A stretch of DNA of 64,000 bases, taken from contig NZ_JACORU010000011.1 of the NCBI RefSeq assembly GCF_014297445.1, forward strand, positions 124,001-188,000, in the 5' to 3' direction. Origin of the DNA: Ramlibacter albus. Its GTDB lineage: Bacteria > Pseudomonadota > Gammaproteobacteria > Burkholderiales > Burkholderiaceae_C. The notes under the pieces are model-generated. The model did no database searches. It worked only from the letters and a program-made list of their open reading frames with translations, and was not told the origin of the DNA. Position 1 is the stretch's first letter. Each line of letters opens with the position of its first letter. Both the position numbers and the translations under genes were made by a program. Shown here in pieces: positions 8,500 to 54,941 of this stretch.

Positions 8500-9789
8500 A
8501 TGAGCGATCCCGTCGGCCCAATCTCCAAGGTCCTAGAACTGGTGAGAAAGCTTCCGCTTTGGCTGTTTGCCGGCGTTGCACTCGCCTGCGGCATCCTGCT
8601 CAAGGCGGTTCCGGCAGCCGACCTTCCAACCGACGCGAGGCCGTGGATCGTCCTCTGTCTTGTAGTGAGCGGGAGCCTCGCCACTGCCAAAATCGTAGAG
8701 TGGGTGGTGTTCGCCATCAAAGCGGTGTACGCGCGCGCTACGGCACCGCCGGCGATCCACCTTTCACCCTGCCCGCATTGGGATTTCTGGACGATCGGCA
8801 AGGACGCAGACGGACCAACGACGCAGTTCCGCGTCGGTTTCCTGGCACGCAATACCTCGGACCAGCCTATCGCGCTTGTTTCCGCGAAGTTAGTTCGGCC
8901 CCGACTCGGCGTGACGTCGCACCATATCGATGTGATGGTTAAGAACGAGCGCACAGGGATGTCGGGCTCAGCGCGCACCGGCCACCTTGTAACCACGGAG
9001 GACCTCACGGAAGGTACGTCTCACGCTCTTCTCAAGGGAAAGCCGTGGTTCCAGAAGTTAGAGGACCCGCTCGTCGTTGTCGTCGAATTCACCGACGATC
9101 TCGGCCGCAAGTACAGGTTCAAGCGGAATGTACGAGGTGTCCCGCGCGCAAAGGCGAAGCCGGCACGCCCTCCCTTGGAACAGCTCGGCCAGCTCGCCGA
9201 GCCCGCCAAGACCGTGGCCGCTGTGCTTCAAGCGGAGCTGTCACGGTACGACCTAAACGGACGGCAGGGCGGAGGCTTGGGCAGCGTGCACCTCGTCCTA
9301 GACGGACGCGAATCTAAGCTGGGGACCGACTCCTGGACCTCGAACTCGCCCAAGAATCAGAGCCTGTGGCTCGGTGACGGCAGTGATGAACCAGCGGTGG
9401 TATCGGACAATGCAGACGCCCTCGTCGCGACGTACGACAAGCTGGAGGGACGCGACGACGAGCTTCCATTCTTCGATGCCTTGTTCGACCGCATGGGCGG
9501 GAACTACGCGCGTGTCGCGTACCTGGTCGTGCTTGTAGCGTTGCGTGTCGGTCAGCTGGAACGCGCCCTCGAGGCTGCCATTGAGAAGCTACCGGACGAG
9601 GATGGCGACGATCACGCGTTGAGCAACATTCAGATGCTGCTGAATGGCATGCTGAAGTTCCGGCATCAAGACTTCGGCGAAGAGGATCTCGACGCGGTGG
9701 AGTCCTTCGTCGGCCGCTTGAAGTCCCCTCCGACGCTGCGCATCCGAGACAAGGTCGCGTCGATTCGCGCGATTCGAGCAGCACATTGA
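8500..9789 (+). CDS. Membrane protein with SieB-like N-terminus
   Basis: 429 residues. Two hydrophobic helices (about residues 18-36 and 49-73) are separated by a short loop containing DARPWI. This two-helix layout with an RPWI-like loop resembles the superinfection-exclusion protein SieB. The remaining ~350 residues are predicted cytoplasmic, with no recognisable domain, so the protein is much longer than lambda SieB. An exclusion or membrane-sensing defence role is an inference from the N-terminus and from the neighbours. Confidence 0.5.
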   Translation: MSDPVGPISKVLELVRKLPLWLFAGVALACGILLKAVPAADLPTDARPWIVLCLVVSGSLATAKIVEWVVFAIKAVYARATAPPAIHLSPCPHWDFWTIGKDADGPTTQFRVGFLARNTSDQPIALVSAKLVRPRLGVTSHHIDVMVKNERTGMSGSARTGHLVTTEDLTEGTSHALLKGKPWFQKLEDPLVVVVEFTDDLGRKYRFKRNVRGVPRAKAKPARPPLEQLGQLAEPAKTVAAVLQAELSRYDLNGRQGGGLGSVHLVLDGRESKLGTDSWTSNSPKNQSLWLGDGSDEPAVVSDNADALVATYDKLEGRDDELPFFDALFDRMGGNYARVAYLVVLVALRVGQLERALEAAIEKLPDEDGDDHALSNIQMLLNGMLKFRHQDFGEEDLDAVESFVGRLKSPPTLRIRDKVASIRAIRAAH

Positions 9790-9817
9790 CCTGGCGTCCG
9801 CGTCGGCCCGCCGTGTG

Positions 9818-10351
9818 TTAGCAGCGCGACAAGGCCCGCCACGATGACTCCATGGTTCGGGGCAACCATCCTCGAAACAATGGTGTGAGCGCGTTCACGC
9901 GTTCCGTTGCAATGAACTGTCCGTGATCCTGCGCCACGACCAAAAGGATCTCCGGACGAAGCAACCACAGGTCGAGTGCGCTTCTCGCGCCCTGAACCAG
10001 CATGAGGGCCCCTACCCTACGCGTGCCCGTACAGTCATGCAGCGCATGCTCCATCTCTCGGCGGATGCAATCGAGTTGAACTGGTTCATCGAAGCCTGAG
10101 GGTTGAACGGACCCTTTGTTGTTTGAAGGCGGCCGAAGTCGCGCGAGAAGCCCACCGAACAACCGACTGAAAGCTTCTGACACGTGGCGATGGTTTCCCG
10201 CGGCGTGCTCCATCTCGCGGCCTGCAATCGCTGCGACAGGGAAGCGCTTCATGCCAGAACTCCTCGCATACCGTCCAACTGCCACTCTGTGGTAGCAGTC
10301 GCATGTGCTCCCTTCGCCTGCAGAAATTGTGGTTTGAGGATGGCGATCCAT
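9818..10351 (-). CDS. Possible hypothetical protein (weak)
   Basis: A leftward open frame of 177 codons from ATG 10351 with no recognised domain. It contains two similar stretches (REMEHAAGN and REMEHALHD), which hints at an internal repeat. The ribosome-binding site is poor, and the composition (many Arg, Cys and His) is less protein-like than neighbouring genes. It fills most of the 634-bp gap between the SieB-like gene and the recombinase-like gene; otherwise I see nothing in that gap. Confidence 0.3.
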   Translation of the reverse strand: MDRHPQTTISAGEGSTCDCYHRVAVGRYARSSGMKRFPVAAIAGREMEHAAGNHRHVSEAFSRLFGGLLARLRPPSNNKGSVQPSGFDEPVQLDCIRREMEHALHDCTGTRRVGALMLVQGARSALDLWLLRPEILLVVAQDHGQFIATERVNALTPLFRGWLPRTMESSWRALSRC

Positions 10352-13165: not shown

Positions 13166-14152
13166 CTACGAGGCCAACGCGCCTTTGATCTTGGCAGCAA
13201 GCGTTTGTGATTGTTCAGCGGTGAGGCCCTTGAAACTCAGCTCGATGCGGCCGCCGTCTTCGAACGTCTTGATCTCGCCTTTGACGCCCGAGAAGAGAAC
13301 ATGCTCGGAGAGCCCCCGGGTACGTTTTACCGGCCCGTTTTCCAACTGCTTTCGACGAGCCGCAACGTCGCGGTACCCAAGATCATTCTTCACAATCTCG
13401 GCGACCAAATTCAGGGTCATCATCTCGGCGCTCGCGGCATCTTCTTTGGCAGCCGCGGCGAAGAACTCCCTAATGGCGTTCAGCATCCTGCCGGTGAGCA
13501 AGCTGGGAGCCTCCGAGAGCGCGACGACGATCTTCTGAGGCAGAACTCCCAACTGCATCGTGCGGCTTACTTCGTCTTCGCCCAGTCCGAGGGCACGCGC
13601 GATGGCGGCCTGGTTGGGGTACACCTTGCGTTCGATCAGTTCTTTCCAGCGGATGGCGTCGTCCAAGGCGGATCCGTCTTGGCGCTGCTTGTTCGCCGCC
13701 CTCGCCTCTTCATAGAGCTTTTGCTCGTCGGCTGGACGGGGCCGAATTTCGATACGCAAGGTCGGCGCCCCATTTGCCTTGGCACCTCTGAAGCGCGTCT
13801 CGCCTTCGATAAGAACGACATGCGAGCCATCGACATAACCGTTGGCCGCGGTGATCTGCCCATTCTCCTGGAGGGAGAGAGCCATCTCGTCGACCACCGA
13901 GTGTGGGTACAGCGCCTTCGGATTGACAGGATTTGACTTAATACGTCCTAGCGGGACATCGTAAGTCTGCCCGACCTCGTAGTCGCCTTGACCTTGGATC
14001 GATCCAAGGCTCGCCGCACCAGGCCCCGTCGCTGTTGCAGGTACCGCCTCTCTGGGATCAGCGAGCATCGGTGACGCAGCCGCTTGCGCGATCGCCTCGG
14101 CGACCTGACCGGGCGCGACCGGGCGCTTCTTGAACATGCTCGCCCCACTCAT
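13166..14152 (-). CDS. parB: Partition protein ParB
   Basis: 328 residues. The ParB/Spo0J core is visible: VPLGRIKSNPVNP at the start, then HVVLIEGETRFRGAKANG, equivalent to the IxGERR CTP-binding box. A helix-turn-helix follows (NQAAIARALGLGEDEVSRTMQLG). The C-terminal part is presumably the dimerisation domain. The gene overlaps parA by 4 bp (ATGA), so translation is coupled. A copy of the 16-bp parS-like palindrome lies inside its 5' coding region and encodes LGSIQG, and two more lie upstream of parA. Confidence 0.9.
   Translation of the reverse strand: MSGASMFKKRPVAPGQVAEAIAQAAASPMLADPREAVPATATGPGAASLGSIQGQGDYEVGQTYDVPLGRIKSNPVNPKALYPHSVVDEMALSLQENGQITAANGYVDGSHVVLIEGETRFRGAKANGAPTLRIEIRPRPADEQKLYEEARAANKQRQDGSALDDAIRWKELIERKVYPNQAAIARALGLGEDEVSRTMQLGVLPQKIVVALSEAPSLLTGRMLNAIREFFAAAAKEDAASAEMMTLNLVAEIVKNDLGYRDVAARRKQLENGPVKRTRGLSEHVLFSGVKGEIKTFEDGGRIELSFKGLTAEQSQTLAAKIKGALAS
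13992..14009. repeat. parS-like palindrome 1 (inside parB)
   Basis: CCTTGGATCGATCCAAGG, an 18-bp perfect palindrome whose 16-bp core CTTGGATCGATCCAAG is identical to the two copies upstream of parA. Its position in the parB coding sequence and identity to the other two support a ParB-binding centromere site. Confidence 0.8.
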
Positions 14153-16613: not shown

Positions 16614-17067
16614 GCCATCGATGGCGGGAGTATGCAGTTCTGCCATCTCTCGGTTCCAAGATGGGCATGAACAGTATGCGGAAAGGTTGGCAGACAGCAT
16701 CAGGTGCCATCGACAGTATGCAATTATGCGGAAAGCTGAGCTTAAACCGTTGATTTGAAAGGGAAAACCGCGACTGGAACATCCGGGATGTCCGTTGGAA
16801 CCCTTGAGACTCAGGAACATGCCATCTCTCGATTCGCGGCCAGCTTCAATGTTGTGGTGTTGTTTTTCTGGTTAATTCAGACAGAAAAAGCCATAAAACC
16901 GCGCACCGGCACCCCCCCGACGAGCCTGCATACCGCGCATACCGCGCATACCGTACGGCGACCCATGGCACCTTTGCATACTTTTCGGAAAGTGATTCAG
17001 TATGTGGAGCAGCTAAAGGACGAGTAACAGGGGCTCGCTGTATCGATGGGGGTATGCAAGAATATGC
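16614..17067. repeat. Iteron-like region, candidate replication origin
   Basis: Non-coding region upstream of rep. GTATGC or its complement occurs at 16630, 16674, 16716, 16929, 16938, 16947, 16976 and 17052, with near matches at 16999 and 17062. Two copies of TATGCGGAAAG lie 50 bp apart (16675-16685, 16725-16735). Three copies recur at 9-bp intervals (16929-16952). TGCCATCTCTCG occurs twice (16641-16652, 16820-16831) and GCCATCGATGGC is a 12-bp palindrome at 16614-16625. An AT-rich stretch at 16850-16900 could be the unwinding element. No DnaA box was identified with certainty. Confidence 0.7.
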
Positions 17068-39228: not shown

Positions 39229-41952
39229 ATGAAAAATGACATTCTCAACGTCGCCGTCGTCAAACGAGACGGCAACACCGTCGCTTTCAACGCGGCGAAG
39301 ATCACAACCGCGATCACCAAGGCCTTCATCGAAGTCAAGGGCAAGGACGCGGCCTCTGCCATGCACCACTACGCCTCGTCCGTTACGGACGAGGTGGTGA
39401 AATCGATCCTGCGGCGTGGCCACGCGTCCATCGGGATCGAGGACATCCAGGATCTGGTGGAGCTGCACCTGATGCGTAGCGAGCACTTCGACGTCGCGCG
39501 CGCCTACATCGTGTTCCGCAGCCAACAGGCGAATCGCCGGGTGCCGTCGGAGCCGCAGGACCACGCGCTGAGCGTCGTCGGCGACGATGGCAACATCGTC
39601 ACGGTCGACATCAAGCAGCTTGCCGAGCGCATCCGCGCTCACGCACAAGGGCTCGAAGTCGATGTCGATGCGGCTGCGCGGCAGGCGTTGCGCGACCTGT
39701 ACAACGGCTGCAGCATGGCCGATGTCCGCAAGGCCCTCCATGGTGCCGCCCGGACACTCATCGAAGTCGACCCGGCGTACTCGAAGCTGGCCGCCAGGCT
39801 GGTGATCGCCGATCTGCACGCCGAAGTCCTGGGCGACGCCGTTCACCAGATGAGCGATGACGAGGCGTCGGCAGCTGCATTCGTGTCCGGCATCCGTGCC
39901 GGCGTGGAAGCAGAGCTGCTCGACCCGCAGATGCTTCAGTTCGATCTCGACCAACTCGCTTCGGCGATCCGGGCCGAGCGGAACGCGCAGTTCGAGCTGC
40001 TGGGCATCCAGACGCTCTATGACCGCTACCTGCTGCATGTGCAGAAGCGCCGCATCGAAGCGCCGCAAGGCTTCTTCATGCGGATTGCCATGGGGCTCGC
40101 GTTGCGGGAAGTCGATCGCGAAGCGAAAGCCATCGAGTTCTACAACCTGCTGTCGTCGTTCGACTTCATGACGAGCACGCCCACGCTGTTCAACTCGGGC
40201 ACGCTGCGGCCGCAACTTTCCAGCTGCTTCCTCACCACGATTCCGGACGATCTGGCCGGGATCTATGAGGGCATCAAAGAAAACGCGCTGTTGTCGAAGT
40301 TTGCCGGTGGACTGGGTAACGACTGGACGCGCGTGCGCGCGCTCCGCTCCCACATCAAGGGAACCAACGGCGAGTCGCAAGGTGTCGTGCCCTTCCTGAA
40401 GGTCGCGAACGATACCGCCGTGGCGGTCAACCAGGGCGGCCGCCGCCAAGGCGCCGTCTGCGGGTACCTCGAAACGTGGCACCTCGACATCGAAGAGTTC
40501 CTCGAGCTGCGCAAGAACACTGGCGACGATCGTCGCCGGACCCACGACATGAACACGGCCAACTGGATTCCGGACTTGTTCATGAAGCGGGTGATCGAGC
40601 AAGGCAACTGGACGCTGTTCACGCCGAGCGAATGCCCCGACCTGCACGAGCTCTACGGCCGCGCGTTTGAGAAAGCGTATGTCGCCTACGAAGCGAAAGC
40701 TGCGCAGGGCCAGGTTGCCAACTTCAAGGTGATCCCGGCCGAAGTTCTGTGGCGCAAGATGCTGACGATGCTGTTCGAGACGGGCCATCCGTGGATCACG
40801 TTCAAGGACTCTTGCAACGTCCGCAGTCCGCAGCAACATGCCGGCGTGGTGCACTCGTCCAACCTGTGCACCGAGATCACGTTGAACACCAGCGATGGCG
40901 AGATTGCCGTGTGCAATCTGGGATCCGTGAACTTGGCGCGCCACATCAAAGGCGGCGGGCTGGACCTCGAGAAGCTGCAAGCTACCGTCAAGACGGCAAT
41001 GCGGATGCTCGACAACGTGATCGACATCAACCTCTACACGGTGAAGAAGGCGCGCGACAGCAACCTTCGGCATCGCCCGGTCGGCCTCGGCGTCATGGGC
41101 TACCAGGACGCGCTGTTCGAGCTGCGCCTGCCTTTCGACTCCGAGGAGGCGGTGCAATTCGCAAACGCATCGGCCGAGGCACTGTGCTTCTATGCCTATT
41201 CCGCTTCGGCGGACTTGGCGCGGGAACGCGGCGTCTACTCCACCTTCAAGGGATCGCTGTGGGACCGTGGCGTGCTGCCGCAGGACTCGCTGGCCATCCT
41301 CGCGGAGGAGCGCGGAAGAAGCATCGCGGTCAGCGTGTCCCCGTCCATGGACTGGGACGCCCTCAGGTCGAAGATCGCAACCCACGGGATGCGCAACTCC
41401 AACTGCGTGGCGATTGCGCCAACTGCAACGATCGCCAACATCGTCGGCGTCGACGCGTCCATCGAGCCGAAGTTCGGCAACCTGGCCGTCAAGTCCAACC
41501 TAGCCGGCGAATTCACCATCGTGAACCGCCAGCTGGTGGCCGACCTCAAAGCCCGCGGCCTCTGGGACGCAGCGATGCTCGTCGAGTTGAAGCACTTCGA
41601 CGGCTCGGTGCAACCGATCGACCGCGTTCCTGCGGATCTGAAGGCGCTCTACAAGACGGCGTTCGAGATCGACACGCTGAAGCTGATCGAAGCCGCGGCC
41701 GTTCGCCAAGTGTGGATCGACCAGGCTCAGTCGCTCAACATCTACATGAAGGGCGCCTCGGGCCGGAAGTTGCACGAGACCTACATGGCCGCGTGGGACA
41801 AGGGCCTGAAGACCACTTACTACCTGCGCACCACCAGCGCCTCCCAAGCCGAGAAGGCGACGGTGGACGCGGGCGCGCTCAACGCAGTCAGAACGCAGGA
41901 GGCTGGCAAGGCCTGCCGGATCGACGATCCGACCTGCGAGGCCTGCCAGTAA
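39229..41952 (+). CDS. nrdA: Ribonucleoside-diphosphate reductase alpha subunit, class Ia
   Basis: 907 residues, long for NrdA. An N-terminal ATP-cone ([24 protein letters not shown]) is followed by a second region (~120-215) before the catalytic barrel. Catalytic residues are QLSSCFLT (Cys about 331), SNLCTEI (Asn 545, Cys 547, Glu 549) and VCNLGSVNL (Cys about 562). The C-terminus ends DPTCEACQ, the CxxC relay pair. It reduces ribonucleotides to deoxyribonucleotides with NrdB, 47 bp downstream. A plasmid copy would support its own replication or transfer synthesis. Confidence 0.93.
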
Positions 41953-47854: not shown

Positions 47855-47892
47855 AGGGGGCACGCCGGAAGGCGGCCCCCTTTCGCTTTTTC
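47855..47892 (+). terminator. Terminator after primase
   Basis: AGGGGGC...GCCCCCT with an inner GCC-GGAA-GGC stem, followed by TTTCGCTTTTTCG. The downstream sequence matches that after the terminator at 27001 (TTTTCGCTTT). Confidence 0.8.
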
Positions 47893-47919: not shown

Positions 47920-47966
47920 ACCTCGCCTAAAGGCCAGTTACCACGGGCCAGCACGGTCCCTACAGT
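47920..47966 (+). promoter_or_regulatory. Lux-box-like site 1 and promoter of the 48024 gene
   Basis: The 20-bp element ACCTCGCCTAAAGGCCAGTT (47920-47939) fits the CT-N12-AG lux-box frame. Overlapping and downstream are -35 TTACCA (47938-47943), 17 bp, and -10 TACAGT (47961-47966). The box abuts the -35, the usual place for a LuxR-type activator. The whole 46-bp arrangement recurs at 53732-53777 with most positions conserved. Confidence 0.6.
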
Positions 47967-48023
47967 CCGTTTTCGCGAGAGCTCCATCGTCTCGCCCCCC
48001 GCACACTACCTGGTCCCGATCTC

Positions 48024-48395
48024 ATGGAAGCGTTTGCCGAGCACGTATGTAGAAGCGCCCCAGCCAGTCGTCTCAGCGCGGCCCTTCGACGCGTGCGGCT
48101 AGCTTTTCCTACCGCGCGCGTCGAGGACATCGAAGGCGAGGAAACGGGTTTTCCCGGTGCGCGCGTCGTCATGCCTAACGGGATGGACGTCGTCGTCGGC
48201 GTCGATCTTGATCGCCCCGGAGACTTGTTCGAAGTGGTGAGGCTTTACGTGCGCGGAGAAAGGGCCAAATACGACTTCGAATTGACCTCTGCCAATGGGT
48301 TCGCGTCGACCGACAAGCTCACCGACGGCGCGTTGCTCAAGGTCTTGGGTTGGTACGCGGCGGCCGATATCGGCCTGATGGCCGCGGGCACATAG
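48024..48395 (+). CDS. Small hypothetical protein under a lux-box-like promoter
   Basis: 123 residues from ATG 48024. No domain is recognised; the C-terminal 60 residues (GDLFEVVRLYVRGERAKYDFELTSANGF) look like a compact alpha/beta fold. It is convergent with the diiron-enzyme gene. The upstream element makes it the clearest candidate target of the LuxR-type regulator at 51303. Confidence 0.55.
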   Translation: MEAFAEHVCRSAPASRLSAALRRVRLAFPTARVEDIEGEETGFPGARVVMPNGMDVVVGVDLDRPGDLFEVVRLYVRGERAKYDFELTSANGFASTDKLTDGALLKVLGWYAAADIGLMAAGT

Positions 48396-48425
48396 GCCTC
48401 CTGGCTTTTTTTCGCAGAAGGCGGA

Positions 48426-49094
48426 TCACGTGCTCGGGAGAGGATGGCTCAACGCAACGTGCTCGATGATTTGTCCGGTAAGGAACAACGTGGTGCGAGC
48501 GACTGTCTTCACGAGTTGCTGCTGATCAGGCGTTTCAGCGAAGCGGGCAACAGCATCCGTCACCTGTTGCATGTGATCCTCGTCCGCCAGAGCGTGCGAG
48601 CCGAAGAACGTCATGTGCTTGGGCTCGAGCGAGAGATCTGCTTTCGCCTTGGCGAGCATCTCGCCGAAGTGCGCATAGGATCCTTCGGCCCAGAAACTGT
48701 AGCCCAGGCGCGGGACCGGGCCGTAGCGGAGCGACACGTAATACAGGTAGCCGATGAGCGCTTCGGTCGCTGGGTTGGGGGGCGGCAAAGCCTCGCCATC
48801 TCGCAATACCCCCAACGCGCGCAAGTCGTGGGTGACCATCCGTTCGTGCCCGAGCTCCTCCGCCGCATGCCGATAGACAAATTTCAGCAGTGCCTCGGGT
48901 GCTTCCACGAACGCAGTCACGGCCTGGTTCATGCTGTTGTGGCGGGTGTAGTGATAAACCTGCACGAGGAAGTCCCGGTACAGGTCCACGCTGACCGGTG
49001 CACCCATCACGCGGCGCGCGAAGTTGCCAGCCTTGATACGGGCCCACTCCTCGGCGACCAGTTCATGTAGTTCGTTGATGAAACCGGTATTCAA
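48426..49094 (-). CDS. Haem-oxygenase-like diiron (iron-containing redox) enzyme
   Basis: 222 residues from TTG 49094 (AAGGA 7 nt upstream). HAAEELGHERM (ExxH) and ADEDHMQQV (ExxxDxH-like) give metal-ligand candidates of the haem-oxygenase-like oxidase/oxygenase fold, and VYHYTRHNSMNQAV is the conserved N-terminal helix of the 'iron-containing redox enzyme' group (PF14518-like). Such enzymes act on fatty acids, amino acids or N-oxidised metabolites. In this cluster, next to a membrane histidine kinase and lux-box-like sites, it is a candidate signal-making enzyme; that is inference. It probably forms an operon with the gene at 49152. Confidence 0.65.
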   Translation of the reverse strand: MNTGFINELHELVAEEWARIKAGNFARRVMGAPVSVDLYRDFLVQVYHYTRHNSMNQAVTAFVEAPEALLKFVYRHAAEELGHERMVTHDLRALGVLRDGEALPPPNPATEALIGYLYYVSLRYGPVPRLGYSFWAEGSYAHFGEMLAKAKADLSLEPKHMTFFGSHALADEDHMQQVTDAVARFAETPDQQQLVKTVARTTLFLTGQIIEHVALSHPLPST

Positions 49095-49151
49095 TTTCGT
49101 TCCTTCGTGCTTTCTAGCCGTTCACGGCTCTGTGATTATCCCGAGCGCGAC

Positions 49152-50015
49152 TCATGACCACTCGTGCCGGCGCTGTTGCGATGCAAGCCACGTGTCATAG
49201 GTCGATGCGGATTTGATGGATGCCGATTCGCATTGCAGTTCCCATGTCCAGACGCCAAAGTCACTGTCCCCGAGGGGCTGCCACGCTCGCTCTTGGACGT
49301 AGGTAACGCCTTCGGGCAGCCGAGCGTGCATGTGTCGTTCGGCAAAGGCGAGCCAGCGCACCCCGCCGTCACGCTGGAGGGTCAACGCACCGAATGGCTC
49401 CGCCAGAATGACGTAGTCCTGTCCCCAGCGACGCAGTCTCTCCTGCAGCGCGATAGTCACTTGTGGGAAGCTGAGTGTTTCGCGGAGGGCCGGTGGGAGC
49501 TCGCCCACCCAGCTCAATGCCAAGCGATGGTCGGCAACCGAAAGCGCGTCGATCAGCCGTGCGGGTAGGTGTGCCAGGTCATCGAGAGCGACGGTCGCGT
49601 CCACGTGCACGTCGTTGCGCGCAGCGCCATCCACCACAACCCGCGCGCCTTCCCATCCCTCTGTCCTGTCTTGAAGCCAGGAAATATCGGGTTCGTGGCC
49701 AGTTCCCGAGCCCACGATGCACGCCCGAGTCAATTCGAACCTTTCCGTGTACTTTGCCCAATACCTCAGGATCGCAGGCACGAGCTCTGCGCCGCGGGCG
49801 GCGTGAGCTACAAGTTCAGCCCTTGCGTGTTCGTGTGCAACGCGAAAGCTGTGTTCGAGGCGAAGCGCGCGCTGCGCGGTTTTTTCGTCTTGGGCGAAGG
49901 TGACTACCCATTCCGCCGGCAAGGCGTCAGAAATAGCCTGCCGGATGCCGGAATCCGGGTGGACCACGAGGATGACGCCGGGTTGGCCGACGAGCGGGAT
50001 ATCGGGAGGGTGCAT
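49152..50015 (-). CDS. Hypothetical protein with degenerate receiver-like N-terminus
   Basis: 287 residues from ATG 50015; the open frame extends to TTG 50072, inside lux-box-like site 2. The first ~45 residues (GVILVVHPDSGIRQAISDALPAEWVVTFAQDEKTAQRAL) resemble the start of a response-regulator receiver, but the paired acidic residues are HP and the phosphoacceptor is not visible. The middle (LTRACIVGSGTGHEPDISWL, ARVVVDGAARND) has Gly-rich nucleotide-binding-like features that I cannot assign. It lies 57 bp upstream of the diiron-enzyme gene in the same direction. Confidence 0.5.
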   Translation of the reverse strand: MHPPDIPLVGQPGVILVVHPDSGIRQAISDALPAEWVVTFAQDEKTAQRALRLEHSFRVAHEHARAELVAHAARGAELVPAILRYWAKYTERFELTRACIVGSGTGHEPDISWLQDRTEGWEGARVVVDGAARNDVHVDATVALDDLAHLPARLIDALSVADHRLALSWVGELPPALRETLSFPQVTIALQERLRRWGQDYVILAEPFGALTLQRDGGVRWLAFAERHMHARLPEGVTYVQERAWQPLGDSDFGVWTWELQCESASIKSASTYDTWLASQQRRHEWS

Positions 50016-50063
50016 TTGCAGGAGCGTGCCCCGGGGAGTGTCCGGCGGGCATAATTTGAGGGA

Positions 50064-50083
50064 AACTGGCAAAAAGGCTAGTT
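50064..50083. promoter_or_regulatory. Lux-box-like site 2
   Basis: AACTGGCAAAAAGGCTAGTT is the most symmetric of the three sites (AACTGGC and GCTAGTT around 6 bp) and fits CT-N12-AG. It lies 49 bp upstream of ATG 50015 (leftward unit) and ~230 bp before the receiver-domain gene (rightward). The rightward -10 at the conserved distance is TAATGC (50105-50110); the leftward one is GACACT. The direction is therefore open. Confidence 0.6.
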
Positions 50084-50309
50084 CCAGGCGAATTGATGAC
50101 GGGGTAATGCCCTGGTCGCGACGTCATGAGAGGGAGAGGGGCTGAGCAAAGTCCCCGGCGCGCACGTATTTGCGGCATACCAAGTCACTGGTTTCGCCCG
50201 CGAACGCGCGTGCGATGCTCTGACAGAGTCGGGGCGGGCTGCCCGTCTCGCGTCGCCTGCCCGGGCAGGCCTACGACATCTCTCGATGGGGCGGACGGAT
50301 CATCGTTTT

Positions 50310-51293
50310 ATGAGCACATCGCATTTCCTCAAGCCGCTGCGGGTGGACTGCCGCTTCGTGTTTATCGACGACTCGATGGATTACTTGGACACCATCAAGA
50401 TGGTGCTCAAGCGCGGCCCGACGGCGGCCGCAAGCTTTTACGACAGGCCGGACACTCTCGATCCTGTTTTGCACGAAAACGCCTTGCGCCTGGAGCGCGA
50501 GAGGTCCCTGCTGCACGGAATCGCAGTCGCACAGGATCCGGAGCAGGAAGGCGCTGCTGCAGTTCTCGCCTTGAAGTACTTCGCGAGCAAATGGCGTCGG
50601 GACATCATCGGCGTGCTCGTCGCCGACTTCGACATGCCGCTCGAGCGGGGCGACCTTTTCTGCAAGAGGCACAAGGCGATCGGTCTTCAGCGCGTCCTTT
50701 TGACCGGCAAGGCCGACCAGTCGCAGGCAATTAATGCGTTCAAGGACAGGCAAATCGAGGACTTCATCGCCAAGAACGAGCAGCGAACGACTGTCGATGC
50801 GAGTGGCAAGTCAGTGCCGGTGCCGTTCCTGGACATCCTGCGATCAGAGTTGGAGCGCCAACCAGCTTTGTCAGCGGAGCTTCGAGGCGAGCCGCTGATG
50901 CCGGTGCTGGACCGGATCGCCGCAGAAAACAAGGTGCTGCAGACCGCCGCCGCGGCGGACTCGCTGCGTCTGCTGCTCGATGAGTATCGGATTTCCGAGT
51001 ACATGATGCTGGGGTTTCCTTTGGGGATTCTTGGGCTCAGCGCGGACGAGAAGGCCTATTGGTTCCAGATCGAGACCGCGGAGAGCAAGGTATCGCAGCT
51101 GGAGGTCTCCACGGGCGATGTTGCCGATCGCGTGAGTCGGGGCGAAACCGCGTTGAACTTCAGTTGGATGGCGCAACTAGGTCACGAGCCAACTGAGGTT
51201 CCTCTGCGTGCGCTCTCAACCGAGCCGTATCTGGCCGTGGGGGTGTGTTCGCTGGACAACCTTCCCCCAGATCTTCACCCTGCATTCAAGTAG
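50310..51293 (+). CDS. Response-regulator-like protein with receiver domain
   Basis: 327 residues from ATG 50310 (ATG 50286 also possible). The receiver has FVFIDDS (acidic pair), VLVADFDMPLERGD (phosphoacceptor Asp), RVLLTGKAD (Thr) and EDFIAKN (Lys). An insertion of ~50 residues lies between the first two elements. The C-terminal ~200 residues have no recognised output domain and no HTH. It begins the unit 50310-51303-52298, which ends with the membrane histidine kinase, so the two are probably partners. Confidence 0.7.
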   Translation: MSTSHFLKPLRVDCRFVFIDDSMDYLDTIKMVLKRGPTAAASFYDRPDTLDPVLHENALRLERERSLLHGIAVAQDPEQEGAAAVLALKYFASKWRRDIIGVLVADFDMPLERGDLFCKRHKAIGLQRVLLTGKADQSQAINAFKDRQIEDFIAKNEQRTTVDASGKSVPVPFLDILRSELERQPALSAELRGEPLMPVLDRIAAENKVLQTAAAADSLRLLLDEYRISEYMMLGFPLGILGLSADEKAYWFQIETAESKVSQLEVSTGDVADRVSRGETALNFSWMAQLGHEPTEVPLRALSTEPYLAVGVCSLDNLPPDLHPAFK

Positions 51294-51302
51294 TCCTTGT
51301 CC

Positions 51303-52301
51303 ATGGACCTGCCCCGCCAGCATCGTCATCAGGTCGACCACAGAGGTGAGTCGTTCCTGGTGTGCTGCGAGCGCGCTGGGGCTGCAATTCGTGTCTGGGT
51401 CGAGCGGACGTCCGGCACTGATAGGGACCGGATAGTCTTGGCCGACGGACATACCCATGCTCCCGACAGCGCGGACGTTCGCAACGAGTTCGCAATCTTG
51501 GCGGACAACGCCCTCGGCGTTGCTGAAGAAGTTGCGATGTCGAGTGGCCTATTCCATCGAACCGGCCGCTCTGTGCAGGCTGGTGCTCGATTGCTCGCGG
51601 TCTGGGGGTTTAGCTCGTCGTCTCCGTTGCGGATTCGCGCACCTGGCGAGGCCGACACGCGACCCGTCAGGGATCCCTTCGGACTCGTCGGCAAAGACGT
51701 CCACGCCGTGATGAGGTTCTTCGAAGAGTCCGTACGCATTTTCGGTGTGAGCGGAATCGCCGTCACGGGGCCTGACGTGGCGTCGGATGATCCCGATCGG
51801 CGGACGCTGGTCGCTGCGTCGCCGCAGGCTCTTGGGGAGGTCGACCCGGCGTACCTTGTGACGAACGAGCGGCGTATGCACCCCGCAGCCGAATGGGGGC
51901 CGCTCGGCGACTGCCCCTACGTCGGAGCGCTGGCCCTTGCGCAGTTCGGATTCGAGGTGTGGATTTCGGTGCGCATTTCTCTCATGGACGGGCACTACTA
52001 CGAGGTGATGATGTTTGGCTCAGCGACGCTCTCCGAGGGTGCGCACGCTCAACTCGCGGCGGCAACTGGATTCAACATGATCGCGCCGCTGCGGCGCGCT
52101 GCCGTTGCTTCGCTAAAAATCTCGTCGCGCGAGCTGGAGGTCCTCCGTCACGGTGCCATGGGCGTCAAGGAGACGGCGGAATTGCTCGGGCTGACGATCA
52201 GCACGGTCAAGTTTCACCGGGACAACATTCGCAGAAAGATCGGCGGTGAAACTACGTGGCAAACATACCTCCGCGCGCAAAAGCTCGGGGTGTTTGATTG
52301 A
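51303..52301 (+). CDS. LuxR-type HTH transcriptional regulator
   Basis: 332 residues from ATG 51303. The C-terminus (KISSRELEVLRHGAMGVKETAELLGLTISTVKFHRDNIRRKI) is a clear LuxR/GerE DNA-binding domain. The N-terminal ~260 residues may be a ligand or partner-binding domain, but the Trp/Tyr pattern of acyl-homoserine-lactone sensors is not obvious. It is the likely binder of the three lux-box-like sites. It overlaps the histidine-kinase start by 4 bp if TTG 52298 is used. Confidence 0.8.
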   Translation: MDLPRQHRHQVDHRGESFLVCCERAGAAIRVWVERTSGTDRDRIVLADGHTHAPDSADVRNEFAILADNALGVAEEVAMSSGLFHRTGRSVQAGARLLAVWGFSSSSPLRIRAPGEADTRPVRDPFGLVGKDVHAVMRFFEESVRIFGVSGIAVTGPDVASDDPDRRTLVAASPQALGEVDPAYLVTNERRMHPAAEWGPLGDCPYVGALALAQFGFEVWISVRISLMDGHYYEVMMFGSATLSEGAHAQLAAATGFNMIAPLRRAAVASLKISSRELEVLRHGAMGVKETAELLGLTISTVKFHRDNIRRKIGGETTWQTYLRAQKLGVFD

Positions 52302-53698
52302 GCGGTCACGACGAATCTTTGATGGCGAGCAACATGCGCAAGCTGTTCCAGGGCTATGTCCGATACCACCAGAACGGACCCAACATGCTCCGGTACATGG
52401 GTTGGTTTGGGCTGCTGGCCTATCCCGCCTTGTACGCCCTGCGCTTTTACAAGTCGGAGCCGGTCTATGACGACCTCTGGTTGAGACTCGTCAACGGTGG
52501 GCTCTGCCTACTGCTGCTACAAAAGGGCTGGCCGGAGAGTCTGAAGCGCTACTACATGCATTTCTCGTATGTGGCGCTGATCATCATGTTGCCGTTCAGC
52601 ATGGTGTTCGTGGGGCTACAGAACCAAGGCGGGACCGTCGCTGTCGCGAACGCGATGATGGCGATCTTTCTCGTCTTGCTGCTCACCGACTGGCGCAACA
52701 CCATCGTGTCCGTGCTGATTGGTGCAGCGCTCGGCGTCGCAGCTTATCTCCTGCTCAACCCGAATCCGGTGCGGCCGCGCGACTACATCGAGCGTATTCC
52801 GGTCGTGGTTGTCATGTCGATCGCAGCCACGCTCATCAAACTCGCGTTGGAGAAAACAACGGCGGAGCGCACCACGCGCCTCGAGCGTCAACAACGCGAG
52901 GGTCGCGTTGCTGCTTTGCAGGAGACGGTGGGGTTTCTGGCGCACGAATTGAACACGCCTCTGTCGGAGGTTCGCCTGCTGGTCGGTGGTGTCCGCGACA
53001 TGTATGTGAAAGGCCCTGACCCTGAAGGCGCTCGCGTGGATAGGTTCGAGGTAGATGAAGCGGGCGATGTGCTGAAAATGCTGGAGCGGATCGAGAAGCG
53101 TGCAAGCTATTCGCAGGATCTGGTCCAACGTCTGATGCGGTCGGCATACCATCACCGCTACGACGGTGGCCCGCAGGAGCTCACGGCGTCGAGCTTGGTG
53201 CAGTCCCTGCTTGAGAACTATCCTTTCCCGGACGACAGGGGCGCCGGTTTCGTCGATGTAGTGACGGTCACTGACTTTGTCTTGCAGGGATCCCGTGAGC
53301 TCCTGTACCTGGTTCTGTCCACACTCACACAGAATTCGCTGCTCGCTTTAAAGGGGCAGCCGTCGCCGCGCCTGGTCATCGAAATCATCGGCAATGGCGT
53401 CGGTCAGCCGGGCGGCATGATTCGCGTCACCGACAACGGGTGCGGTGTCCCACCTGATCTGATCTCGAAGCTCGCGAAAGAAGCCGTGCCAAGTGGCTGG
53501 AAGGAAGGACACCGTGGCGGAGGCATGGGGCTGATGTTCGCGCAGCGCGTGCTGGAGGCGAACGGCGGCAACGTCAGTGTCGAGTCGATGGCGGGTAAGG
53601 GCACCAGCGTCACTTTGACGTTCCGCGGTGGTGCTGGCGGCTCGGTTGGTGCCAACGTGCGCCAGTCGCATACACCGACCAACCAGTCGGAAGTCTGA
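52298..53698 (+). CDS. Membrane histidine kinase, CqsS/LqsS/PhcS-like
   Basis: 466 residues from TTG 52298, or 458 from ATG 52322. About six hydrophobic helices (residues ~30-185) form the sensor; RYMGWFGLLAYPALYALRF and the second-helix region resemble the CqsS-type sensor of quorum kinases. The HisKA segment is TVGFLAHELNTPLSEVRLL (His about 213). The ATPase part has LVLSTLTQNSLLAL (N box), RVTDNGCGVPP and EGHRGGGMGLMFAQRV. It ends without a receiver. It probably senses a small hydrophobic signal and passes phosphate to the protein at 50310. Confidence 0.85.
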   Translation: MSGHDESLMASNMRKLFQGYVRYHQNGPNMLRYMGWFGLLAYPALYALRFYKSEPVYDDLWLRLVNGGLCLLLLQKGWPESLKRYYMHFSYVALIIMLPFSMVFVGLQNQGGTVAVANAMMAIFLVLLLTDWRNTIVSVLIGAALGVAAYLLLNPNPVRPRDYIERIPVVVVMSIAATLIKLALEKTTAERTTRLERQQREGRVAALQETVGFLAHELNTPLSEVRLLVGGVRDMYVKGPDPEGARVDRFEVDEAGDVLKMLERIEKRASYSQDLVQRLMRSAYHHRYDGGPQELTASSLVQSLLENYPFPDDRGAGFVDVVTVTDFVLQGSRELLYLVLSTLTQNSLLALKGQPSPRLVIEIIGNGVGQPGGMIRVTDNGCGVPPDLISKLAKEAVPSGWKEGHRGGGMGLMFAQRVLEANGGNVSVESMAGKGTSVTLTFRGGAGGSVGANVRQSHTPTNQSEV

Positions 53699-53730
53699 CA
53701 ACGCCGGGACGCCCGGATTTTTCTTTCGAA

Positions 53731-53777
53731 ACCTCGCCAAAAAGCCAGTTTTCGACGGTCAGTGCTACTCCTAAAGT
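53731..53777 (+). promoter_or_regulatory. Lux-box-like site 3 with promoter pointing into the antisense of the CI-like gene
   Basis: ACCTCGCCAAAAAGCCAGTT (53731-53750), then a weak -35 (TTTTCG, 53749-53754), 17 bp and -10 TAAAGT (53772-53777). It matches site 1 across 46 bp. Rightward transcription starting near 53784 would run through 53905-54660 antisense to the CI-like regulator gene. GGAGG at 53833-53837 with ATG 53845 could begin a short peptide. Confidence 0.55.
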
Positions 53778-53904: not shown

Positions 53905-54660
53905 TCACGCGCTTCGGTTGCGGCCGATTTCGCGTGCCAGGGTTTGGGCGAACTGAAGTCGCAGGAAAAGGGCGCGGATGTTCTGATTGCCGGCGCGCCC
54001 ATGGAACACGACGTGGGGTACGTCACGTTCTTCATCATGCCGAAAGACGGCATGCCGATCAGTGCACTCCGTGCACTCCAGCAGGTCGAATCCAGCGTCG
54101 CCCTCGAACAAGTAAAGGCGTCCAAGGGTGACGTCGGTCGACTGCACCGGCGCGGAAACCACCAGGTAGTCACCGGCGGCGATTCCGAATCCCATGGGCA
54201 CCTTGGCCACGTGGTACATCAAGCCCGCGAGCTCGCTGGCTGGGACATGCGCCTCAGAGGGGAATCGAATGGCAATGCTCTCGCCGGGGCCGATTGGCTT
54301 CACGACTACCGTGTCGGGCGGAAGTGCTTCCGCACGATGCTCGTCGAGGAAATAGCCCGGAGGTCTCCTGGTGATGTCGCACAGCGCCATCAACTGCTCA
54401 TACGACGGCATGCAGTGGCCGCCGAGAAGCTGGGTTGCGGTTTCAATGTCGGTCGGAATCGAGATCGACATGTTCACAGAGAGCTGGCGTGCACGTTCCG
54501 TGCGCTGGACAGGGTACGTGATCGCGTCGAGAGCGACCGCAAGCCGCATTGCGAAGCGGCGCTGCAGACGCTGCATCCCCTCCAGCTTGCTGCTCAAAGC
54601 CATCATGTTGTTGTCATTCGCCCCAGGTCCGAAGACCGGCTTTCGGTCCGAGTCGATCAT
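53905..54660 (-). CDS. Cro/CI-like (XRE-family) regulator
   Basis: 251 residues from ATG 54660; ATG 54606 is an alternative, and the open frame reaches 54924 but the first ~88 residues are not protein-like. An HTH region spans RFAMRLAVALDAITYPVQRTER...DIETATQLLGGHCMPSYEQLMALCDITRRPPGYFLDE, the XRE pattern with the PGYFLDE tail. The C-terminal 150 residues hold a beta-rich domain with CTECTDRH. No LexA-type Ser/Lys dyad is evident. It is divergent from FlhD/FlhC-like genes, as SetR is near SetCD, so it may repress them. Confidence 0.65.
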   Translation of the reverse strand: MIDSDRKPVFGPGANDNNMMALSSKLEGMQRLQRRFAMRLAVALDAITYPVQRTERARQLSVNMSISIPTDIETATQLLGGHCMPSYEQLMALCDITRRPPGYFLDEHRAEALPPDTVVVKPIGPGESIAIRFPSEAHVPASELAGLMYHVAKVPMGFGIAAGDYLVVSAPVQSTDVTLGRLYLFEGDAGFDLLECTECTDRHAVFRHDEERDVPHVVFHGRAGNQNIRALFLRLQFAQTLAREIGRNRSA

Positions 54661-54941
54661 GAGCGCGTGCTGCCCGCTCGGGTGTTTCGGCAGCGGGTGA
54701 GTGTATCGGCATGCACGACTGGCCCGCGGCTCGTGAAGCGTCCTTGGGTTCGGGTGAACCCGATGCAGCTTCCAAGCCAACTCATGTCGTGAAATTTTGC
54801 GCACATGCTCGGTTAGGTCCAACTGCCACCTGCTAATTTTGACAGGTAGTAGTTTTGGGTAAGTGACAAGTTCCTGTAACGTGCGAGACAGCCGGTAGTT
54901 TGCGTCAAAACAGTAACAGGCCAATCTTTCAGAGGTTTTAC
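54661..54941. promoter_or_regulatory. Divergent control region between CI-like and FlhD-like genes
   Basis: TTGACA at 54839-54844 is a perfect -35, with only a weak -10 at 54860-54867. TAGTTTTG/TAGTTTG direct repeats and a TTGACAGG...CCTGTAAC inverted repeat (54839-54880) are candidate operators. The region is relatively AT-rich compared with its neighbours. Confidence 0.45.

Follow-up and report, generated by a model that had tools for sequence, protein, structure and literature searches.

A putative rewired quorum-sensing circuit of the Lqs/Jqs type carried by a conjugative element of Ramlibacter albus

Introduction

To our knowledge, the synthases known for receptors of the CqsS class, to which the Lqs, Jqs and Cqs systems (LqsA-LqsS-LqsR, JqsA-JqsS-JqsR) belong, are pyridoxal phosphate (PLP) enzymes and a methyltransferase. 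Haem-oxygenase-like diiron enzymes (HDOs) are found in other settings, such as the leudiazen and valdiazen pathways, which depend on them. In this study, we analyzed a stretch of 64,000 nucleotides from Ramlibacter albus (the window; bases 124001-188000 of the 214,510-bp contig C3), in which one block of genes encodes an HDO, two LqsR-family response regulators, a LuxR-type regulator and a CqsS-type membrane histidine kinase, and contains three dyads resembling lux boxes. Clusters of the lqs type have been reported in Polaromonas and Burkholderia, and the passages on LuxR in the same source name no linked LuxR gene (PMC3376566). An LqsR-family protein, PhcX, has been described as attached to the Phc system (PMC10653808).

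A previous reading, made from the sequence only, had proposed that the block is a quorum-like circuit. This gains support from the CqsS-type kinase, the LqsR-family regulators, the predicted LuxR-type operators and a box that recurs in related loci; what did not hold is the argument by which the diiron enzyme had been named as the signal synthase. The same reading had known no described quorum system with this combination; the circuit is not wholly new, its receptor half being of the Lqs/Jqs/Cqs type (PMC3376566, PMC3566124). Among the open-access titles and abstracts listed for the terms used, none dealt with a diiron/FeeM/CqsS combination or with a LuxR box before lqsA. On balance, we favor the view that the block encodes a quorum-sensing circuit of the Lqs/Jqs type, rewired and carried by a conjugative element.

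Results

A chimeric kinase and two LqsR-family regulators

The block kinase is homologous, along both its sensor and its catalytic core, to the kinases that stand beside hydroxyketone synthases. Its sensor is 47% identical to that of a hybrid kinase encoded on the chromosomal contig C12 of the same genome and 46% identical to a sensor from Ramlibacter rhizophilus, the next best in the first set reaching 32%. Its catalytic core matches the neighboring receiver-kinase of C12 at 46% identity (next best, 32%). The sensors of the window, C12 and Ramlibacter hybrid kinases form one clade (100/100), and in the core tree the window kinase groups with three receiver-kinases (100/99), the cores of the hybrid kinases forming a separate clade (100/99). 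The trees left out the sensor of a metagenome-assembled genome (MAG) for missing data, and L022, which has no H-box, and the program gave a long-branch warning. Judged by these alignments and trees, the kinase is a chimera, whose sensor and core match two neighboring chromosomal gene types. Because the window core falls outside the group of three receiver-kinases (96/88), it does not appear to have been copied recently from C12.

Both receiver proteins of the block belong to one family, whose profile matches 6sy9, presumably Legionella LqsR, over its full length (E 2.2e-41). This profile matched 103 of 399 genomes of the order, many of the hits being receiver domains only; here and below, genome counts rest on evenly drawn samples. 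The protein encoded at 49152-50015 had no Pfam match above cut-off, and it alone among the 32 family members compared lacks the phosphorylated aspartate. The LuxR-type regulator has an N-terminal extension of about 125 residues, followed by a region that is related to the LuxR proteins of lqs loci and by a GerE helix-turn-helix (HTH). Residues 127-331 are 28% identical to the LuxR protein of an intact lqs locus, and 300 genomes of the order contained no other close relative, only matches at E 1e-6 or weaker. The profile of this LuxR family aligned mostly with the HTH regions of solved LuxR proteins, and beyond the HTH in CviR.

The protein names given by the sequence-only reading proved sound for the diiron enzyme (PF14518), the GerE-type LuxR protein and the HATPase kinase, and the receiver match fell below the Pfam cut-off (Table 1; all gene starts are predicted).

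Hydroxyketone synthase loci and the origin of the signal

The PLP enzyme adjoining such regulators is the alpha-hydroxyketone-type autoinducer synthase of NCBIfam (four of four tested exceeded the 428-bit cut-off). Of 150 same-family genomes, 21 carry it above cut-off, including one that belongs to the same genus. Eighteen of these 21 loci combine genes for LuxR, kinase, regulator and synthase, and in 12 of the 18 the flanking genes include both coaX and a metallo-beta-lactamase-like gene. The R. albus genome itself gave no match to NF005526 (E 1e-20) or to a relative's synthase (1e-5), a negative that lacks a related enzyme as internal control, as bioF was also unmatched there; NF005526 was matched in 97 of the 150 genomes and in 8 of 14 controls. 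With respect to bioF, it went unmatched in this genome, though the family search was positive in 8 of 14 control genomes. The chromosomal coaX locus, on contig C23, keeps a LuxR gene and a regulator gene, and neither kinase nor synthase was found within the surrounding 16 kb.

The sensor type is rare: besides the genome's own two copies (below 1e-110), 13 other genomes of the 399 matched, at 1e-27 or weaker. Since these next best matches (E 1e-27 to 1e-17) include eight kinases that stand in loci with a hydroxyketone synthase, a hydroxyketone-like ligand is favored. These eight kinases, the failure to detect a synthase in a genome that has synthase-bearing relatives in its family and genus, and the reduced coaX locus with its perfect box would all suit an eavesdropper, in which the plasmid kinase senses alpha-hydroxyketones from neighbors or other members of the genus and the diiron enzyme is unrelated metabolic cargo. 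We nevertheless consider an eavesdropper unlikely: in R. rhizophilus, the diiron gene shares an operon, behind the box described below, with the closest sensor relative, and the window sensor groups with the C12 and Ramlibacter sensors, in whose stretches no hydroxyketone synthase was found.

A box common to LuxR-linked loci

Palindromes shared upstream of the synthase gene were sought de novo in 18 LuxR-linked loci of the family, without use of the window dyads. The best, CCTGTCA-N4-TGACAGG, is of the form CT-N12-AG and had a mean match of 15.2/18, versus 11.4 in one shuffled set. With at most two mismatches, this box precedes the synthase gene in 15 of the 18 loci (12 perfect), or in 15 of 19 with L068, from another family, and in one of four synthase loci without LuxR; 48 matches with up to three mismatches were counted over all 342 kb of loci. 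On C23, a perfect box (stretch position 8601) lies just 3' of the regulator gene, at about the position of the synthase gene in relatives.

A perfect box also precedes the diiron operon of R. rhizophilus (0.02 expected at two mismatches in that stretch). On C12, the box occurs with one mismatch before the acyltransferase gene and with two between the genes of the small protein P123 and a desaturase (0.06 expected). In three of the four promoter directions of these two loci (acyltransferase, P123 and diiron enzyme), a -10 hexamer with at least 4/6 matches follows exactly 21 nt on, the frequency of such hexamers at a fixed place being 0.004 to 0.006, and the -10 of the C12 P123 gene, TAAAGT, is identical to that of dyad 3. 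As the relatives carry a CT-N12-AG box before the synthase gene and the -10 geometry recurs, the window dyads are predicted to be LuxR-type operators. A box with two mismatches at window position 54829 was not counted, matches with up to three mismatches being at chance level there (3 vs 2.56 expected).

The three dyads of the block

The dyads that the sequence-only reading had placed at 47920, 50064 and 53731 are all present with CT-N12-AG in common, and the equal -10 distance that it had noted at dyads 1 and 3 is exactly 21 nt at each. The frequency at a given place of hexamers as good as TACAGT and TAAAGT, which match at 4/6 or better and include A2 and T6, is 0.0026. Dyads 1 and 3 (20 bp, 21 nt) thus fit the predicted arrangement of a lux-box-like dyad by the -35 position with a -10 downstream; dyad 2, where the hexamer 21 nt out is weak both ways (GACACT and TAATGC), does not. 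A scan with the sigma-70 consensus found 0 promoters (1.5 expected), so that the -10 argument rests on the comparison between loci.

Dyads 1 and 3 are identical at 18 of 20 bases, and a pattern made from them, built after the fact, is expected 0.03 times in the window. Across the whole genome, its perfect matches are dyads 1 and 3 only, and with two mismatches dyad 2 and two other places are added. At up to three mismatches there are 19 matches, five of which are the three dyads on one or both strands, compared with 28 for a backwards-pattern control. The comparison stretch L027 contained 14 matches (5.6 expected), of which 13 had three mismatches and one had two. We also searched for triples of dyads with at least 5/8 half-site pairs, one pair being at least 18/20 and the third dyad at least 15/20 alike, all within 6 kb, with thresholds picked when the sites were already known. 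No triple appeared in 200 simulated windows. At least one such pair did in 29 of the 200, which makes the pair of dyads 1 and 3 alone little proof.

A second triple is present in the real window, with strong palindromes at 13991, 14955 and 14991 around TTGGATCGATCCAA.

Dyads 1 and 3 stand on either side of the block, equally oriented, separated by 5.8 kb and with some likeness past the dyad, as would direct repeats that arose when the block was inserted or duplicated. That they are such repeats and not operators is most improbable, given that dyad 2 lies inside the block in a divergent promoter region and that the dyad with its 21-nt -10 recurs at homologous promoters elsewhere.

Dyad 1 sits 3' of a terminator-like hairpin (47866-47885), and another lies between the kinase gene and dyad 3; hairpins of this kind are weak evidence alone, the scan having found 8 against 6.5 expected, which is not above chance. 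Dyad 3 reads antisense to an open reading frame (ORF; 53905-54687) without an informative family match, and onward towards the transfer genes.

The diiron enzyme and its acyltransferase-like neighbors

On C12, a GNAT gene, the hybrid kinase and the receiver-kinase are consecutive and are followed by a fatty acid desaturase and a homologue of P123 (52% identity). The sensor search gave two genome-contig loci. That of R. rhizophilus is an operon in the order diiron enzyme, GNAT, hybrid kinase and receiver-kinase, and its diiron protein is 61% identical to that of the window; in the MAG, GNAT is followed by the hybrid kinase, and the receiver-kinase lies 7 kb further. Few genomes encode this diiron subfamily (at E 1e-30, 2 of the 399 from the order), and the window enzyme matches a solved relative, 3dde, at E 2.9e-38. 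Its gene follows that of the degenerate regulator by 57 bp on the same strand. As one Ramlibacter operon joins a homologue of this enzyme with the kinases, it is likely part of the circuit; that operon also led us to reject the idea that it is unrelated cargo, which the other diiron contexts had favored.

Three of six GNAT genes reached the model of the N-acyl amino acid synthase FeeM (PF21926, cut-off 27 bits), namely those of R. rhizophilus (29.2 bits), the MAG (L135; 30.6) and Agarilytica (L016; 35.0). The C12 gene, tested as two fragments, scored 17.7 bits with a fragment, that of Deefgea (L017) scored 17.4, and that of a Pseudomonas syringae plasmid had no match. An acyltransferase-like gene adjoins the diiron gene in five other contexts and is clear in two of them, Ramlibacter and Agarilytica. 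The window diiron gene has no such neighbor, its nearest counterpart in the genome being that of C12.

In both the C12 stretch (12397-11757) and the Ramlibacter stretch (9342-9976), the FeeM-like acyltransferase gene is split over two frames, with a -1 shift at an identical GAAAAAAAGAG run, which in the Ramlibacter stretch is the sole A7 in 20.5 kb. A programmed frameshift at the A7 run is possible. The split could also be a sequencing or assembly fault, against which we note that it occurs identically in two genomes where AAA accounts for 5% and 8% of lysine codons.

The P. syringae plasmid (L015, 3509-12153) carries genes annotated as encoding a LuxR protein, anthranilate synthase, a CoA ligase, a hypothetical weakly GNAT-like protein, the diiron enzyme, a flavodoxin and a transporter, which looks like a small biosynthetic cluster. 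In L017 (8299-11197) and L138 (7797-10310), a weakly GNAT-like gene, the diiron gene and a DUF3419 gene are consecutive, which is a second setting of the enzyme, accompanied by an annotated adenosylmethionine decarboxylase in L017 and, by eye, something similar in L138.

A LuxI/LuxR pair on the same contig

The sequence-only reading had found no luxI gene, which is true within the window and incorrect for the contig: the genome's only match to PF00765 (E 7.6e-36, C3:120305-120847) lies 3.2 kb beyond the window, at a distance of 51 kb from the block, which rules out an element free of luxI. Beside it stands a LuxR gene (C3:121458-122177, PF03472 E 6.2e-27, plus GerE), and a third LqsR-family regulator adjoins the pair. 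The argument that the diiron enzyme must be the synthase because luxI is missing is thus not supported, the more so as the diiron gene elsewhere has an acyltransferase-like neighbor, which is the likelier condensing enzyme. What remains of that proposal is a likely member of the circuit, supported by the Ramlibacter operon and the family box, and in this form the guess appears better supported than by its original argument.

With such a pair and its LqsR-family regulator on the same contig, the dyads could be lux boxes of an acyl-homoserine lactone (AHL)-type LuxR (C3:121458-122177) and the block simply part of its regulon. This is improbable, as no 20-mer in the 20-kb stretch around luxI exceeds 14/20 to any of the three dyads, the best dyad upstream of luxI differs in sequence, and both perfect genome matches to the dyad pattern fall in the block. 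At three mismatches, the pattern matched that stretch 28 times (24.9 expected), no better than chance. The dyad upstream of luxI (stretch position 16907) is 20 bp long, with 9/10 pairs.

The element and further features

C3 belongs to a draft genome of 6.15 Mb in 39 contigs (completeness 99.68%). Because it encodes a TraI_2 relaxase, a TraG/TraD-type coupling protein and a T2SS/T4SS ATPase, it can safely be considered a conjugative element by gene content, and it is likely a plasmid; its ends showed no exact terminal overlap of at least 25 bases. A DNA-level plasmid search with the block as query gave no match. Four plasmids, three from Polaromonas and one from Rhodoferax, carry relatives of the regulator. 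Three of these plasmids are typed as MOBH and conjugative, two have a kinase gene next to the regulator gene, and two have a LuxR gene nearby. One Polaromonas plasmid (L018, 8657-9663) contains kinase remnants that are 46% identical to the window kinase core, about 12 kb from the regulator gene. The element also carries, at window positions 39229-41952, a complete ribonucleotide reductase large chain.

P123 was found in this genome alone among 299 same-family genomes, in two copies, and a scan of genome contigs gave 72 pattern hits and no relative.

Table 1 Features of the block and its borders (window positions)
Feature	Position	Strand	Remarks
Dyad 1	47920-47939	+	ACCTCGCCTAAAGGCCAGTT; putative LuxR-type operator; -10 TACAGT at 47961-47966
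P123, small protein of unknown function	48024-48395	+	downstream of dyad 1
HDO	48426-49094	-	PF14518 E 1.8e-20; TTG start, AAGGA ahead
LqsR-family response regulator, degenerate receiver	49152-50015, extendable to 50072	-	phospho-Asp replaced by Gly
Dyad 2	50064-50083	.	AACTGGCAAAAAGGCTAGTT; divergent region between minus operon and plus operon
LqsR-family response regulator with phospho-Asp	50286-51293	+	6sy9 E 4.9e-9, residues 21-166
LuxR-type regulator, 334 aa	51297-52301	+	GerE 27.9 bits
Chimeric CqsS-type membrane histidine kinase	52298-53698	+	HATPase; sensor and core trees
Terminator-like hairpin	53704-53716	+	directly 3' of kinase gene
Dyad 3	53731-53750	+	ACCTCGCCAAAAAGCCAGTT; -10 TAAAGT at 53772-53777
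Regulator-like ORF (by eye)	53905-54687, extendable to 54924	-	antisense to predicted dyad 3 transcript

Discussion

With regard to the mechanism, the three dyads are probably bound by the plasmid LuxR-type protein and act as class II activator sites. Bound in this way, the protein would activate P123, the minus operon with the degenerate regulator and the diiron enzyme, and the plus operon, which encodes the regulator, the kinase and the LuxR-type protein itself, so that it would feed back on its own expression. For the next step, the case is evenly balanced: the kinase may sense a hydrophobic acyl-derived signal and pass phosphate to the regulator at 50286-51293, the degenerate regulator acting as a non-phosphorylated competitor or scaffold. 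Somewhat less probably, the diiron enzyme and the FeeM-like acyltransferase, which is chromosomal here and lies beside the parent-type kinases, contribute jointly to making or tailoring that signal. A speculative and rather unlikely extension is that the dyad 3 transcript, antisense to the regulator-like gene by the transfer genes, couples the signal to conjugation.

Several observations weigh against a rewired circuit of this kind. Of the 14 fixed positions of the family box, the window dyads share only 8; for this reason, we only infer that the plasmid LuxR-type protein binds them, the dyads then being a diverged version of the box for that protein. Dyad 2 has no good -10, the desaturase direction of C12 has none at 21 nt, the ATG of the C12 P123 gene lies only 11 nt past its -10, and the synthase promoters have a -10 at offset 21 in 0 of 16 cases, with TTCAAT-like hexamers at offset 29 in 12 of 16. 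The window LuxR protein does not match PF03472, the Pfam autoinducer domain, which is also unmatched in L065 and L066 and matched in a more distant member, L068 (E 7.8e-8). AlphaFold models of the LuxR protein and of P123 were too poor to use (mean pLDDT 33.8 and 52.5, respectively).

On the side of the signal, the chromosomal acyltransferase is split over two frames, eight of the next sensor relatives stand in hydroxyketone synthase loci, and the operon joining diiron enzyme and kinases is known from one genome. The four other diiron contexts lack an annotated kinase nearby or, in L138, have one at 2.2 kb that gives no match to a CqsS-type sensor, so that the enzyme possibly belongs to general metabolism. 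The acyltransferase neighbor is weak in three of its five contexts (the P. syringae plasmid, which is one of 23 Pseudomonas records, Deefgea and L138), these three resting on sub-threshold Pfam scores or on our own profile, built partly from these genes.

A more ambitious interpretation, which we put forward tentatively as doubtful, is that the signal of a CqsS-class receptor is made by a synthase not yet described, which consists of an HDO and a FeeM-type acyltransferase, the latter produced by a programmed -1 frameshift at the conserved A7 run, and which is under the LuxR-type box that also precedes the relatives' hydroxyketone synthase. The conjugative element would have captured the oxidase, the fused one-piece kinase and its own version of the box, giving a private or parasitic channel coupled to host signaling. 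That the acyltransferase neighbor is clear in only two of five contexts and that eight sensor relatives stand by a synthase count slightly against this interpretation and the rewired circuit, and slightly for the eavesdropper. If the rewired circuit is correct, oxidase and acyltransferase would be an added signal-synthesis module for the CqsS receptor class, a definable box would tie a LuxR-type regulator to Lqs-type clusters, making ligand and regulon testable, and a mobile element would carry a fused receptor built from two chromosomal gene types.

In comparison with known systems, the block shares with LuxI/LuxR AHL systems a GerE regulator, CT-N12-AG dyads and a class II-like -10 spacing at two of three sites, but it contains no LuxI and the ligand domain of its LuxR protein is unrecognized by Pfam. 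It shares the HDO with pathways such as that of mangotoxin, whose MboA is a distant sequence relative (E 0.0004); the acyltransferase-like partner of the diiron enzyme is a difference. The membrane kinase and receiver-kinase pair of C12 and Ramlibacter is reminiscent of PhcS/PhcR; unlike in the PhcBSRQ system of Ralstonia, kinases of this paired type are fused to one chimera on the plasmid. The closest resemblance is to Lqs/Jqs/Cqs, through the kinase, the LqsR-family regulators and relatives that lie on four Polaromonas/Rhodoferax plasmids and, beside a synthase, on same-family chromosomes. In contrast to these systems, block and genome are without a detected synthase, and the block exhibits a chimeric kinase, a degenerate second regulator, a diiron enzyme and a LuxR-type regulator that comes with its own dyads.

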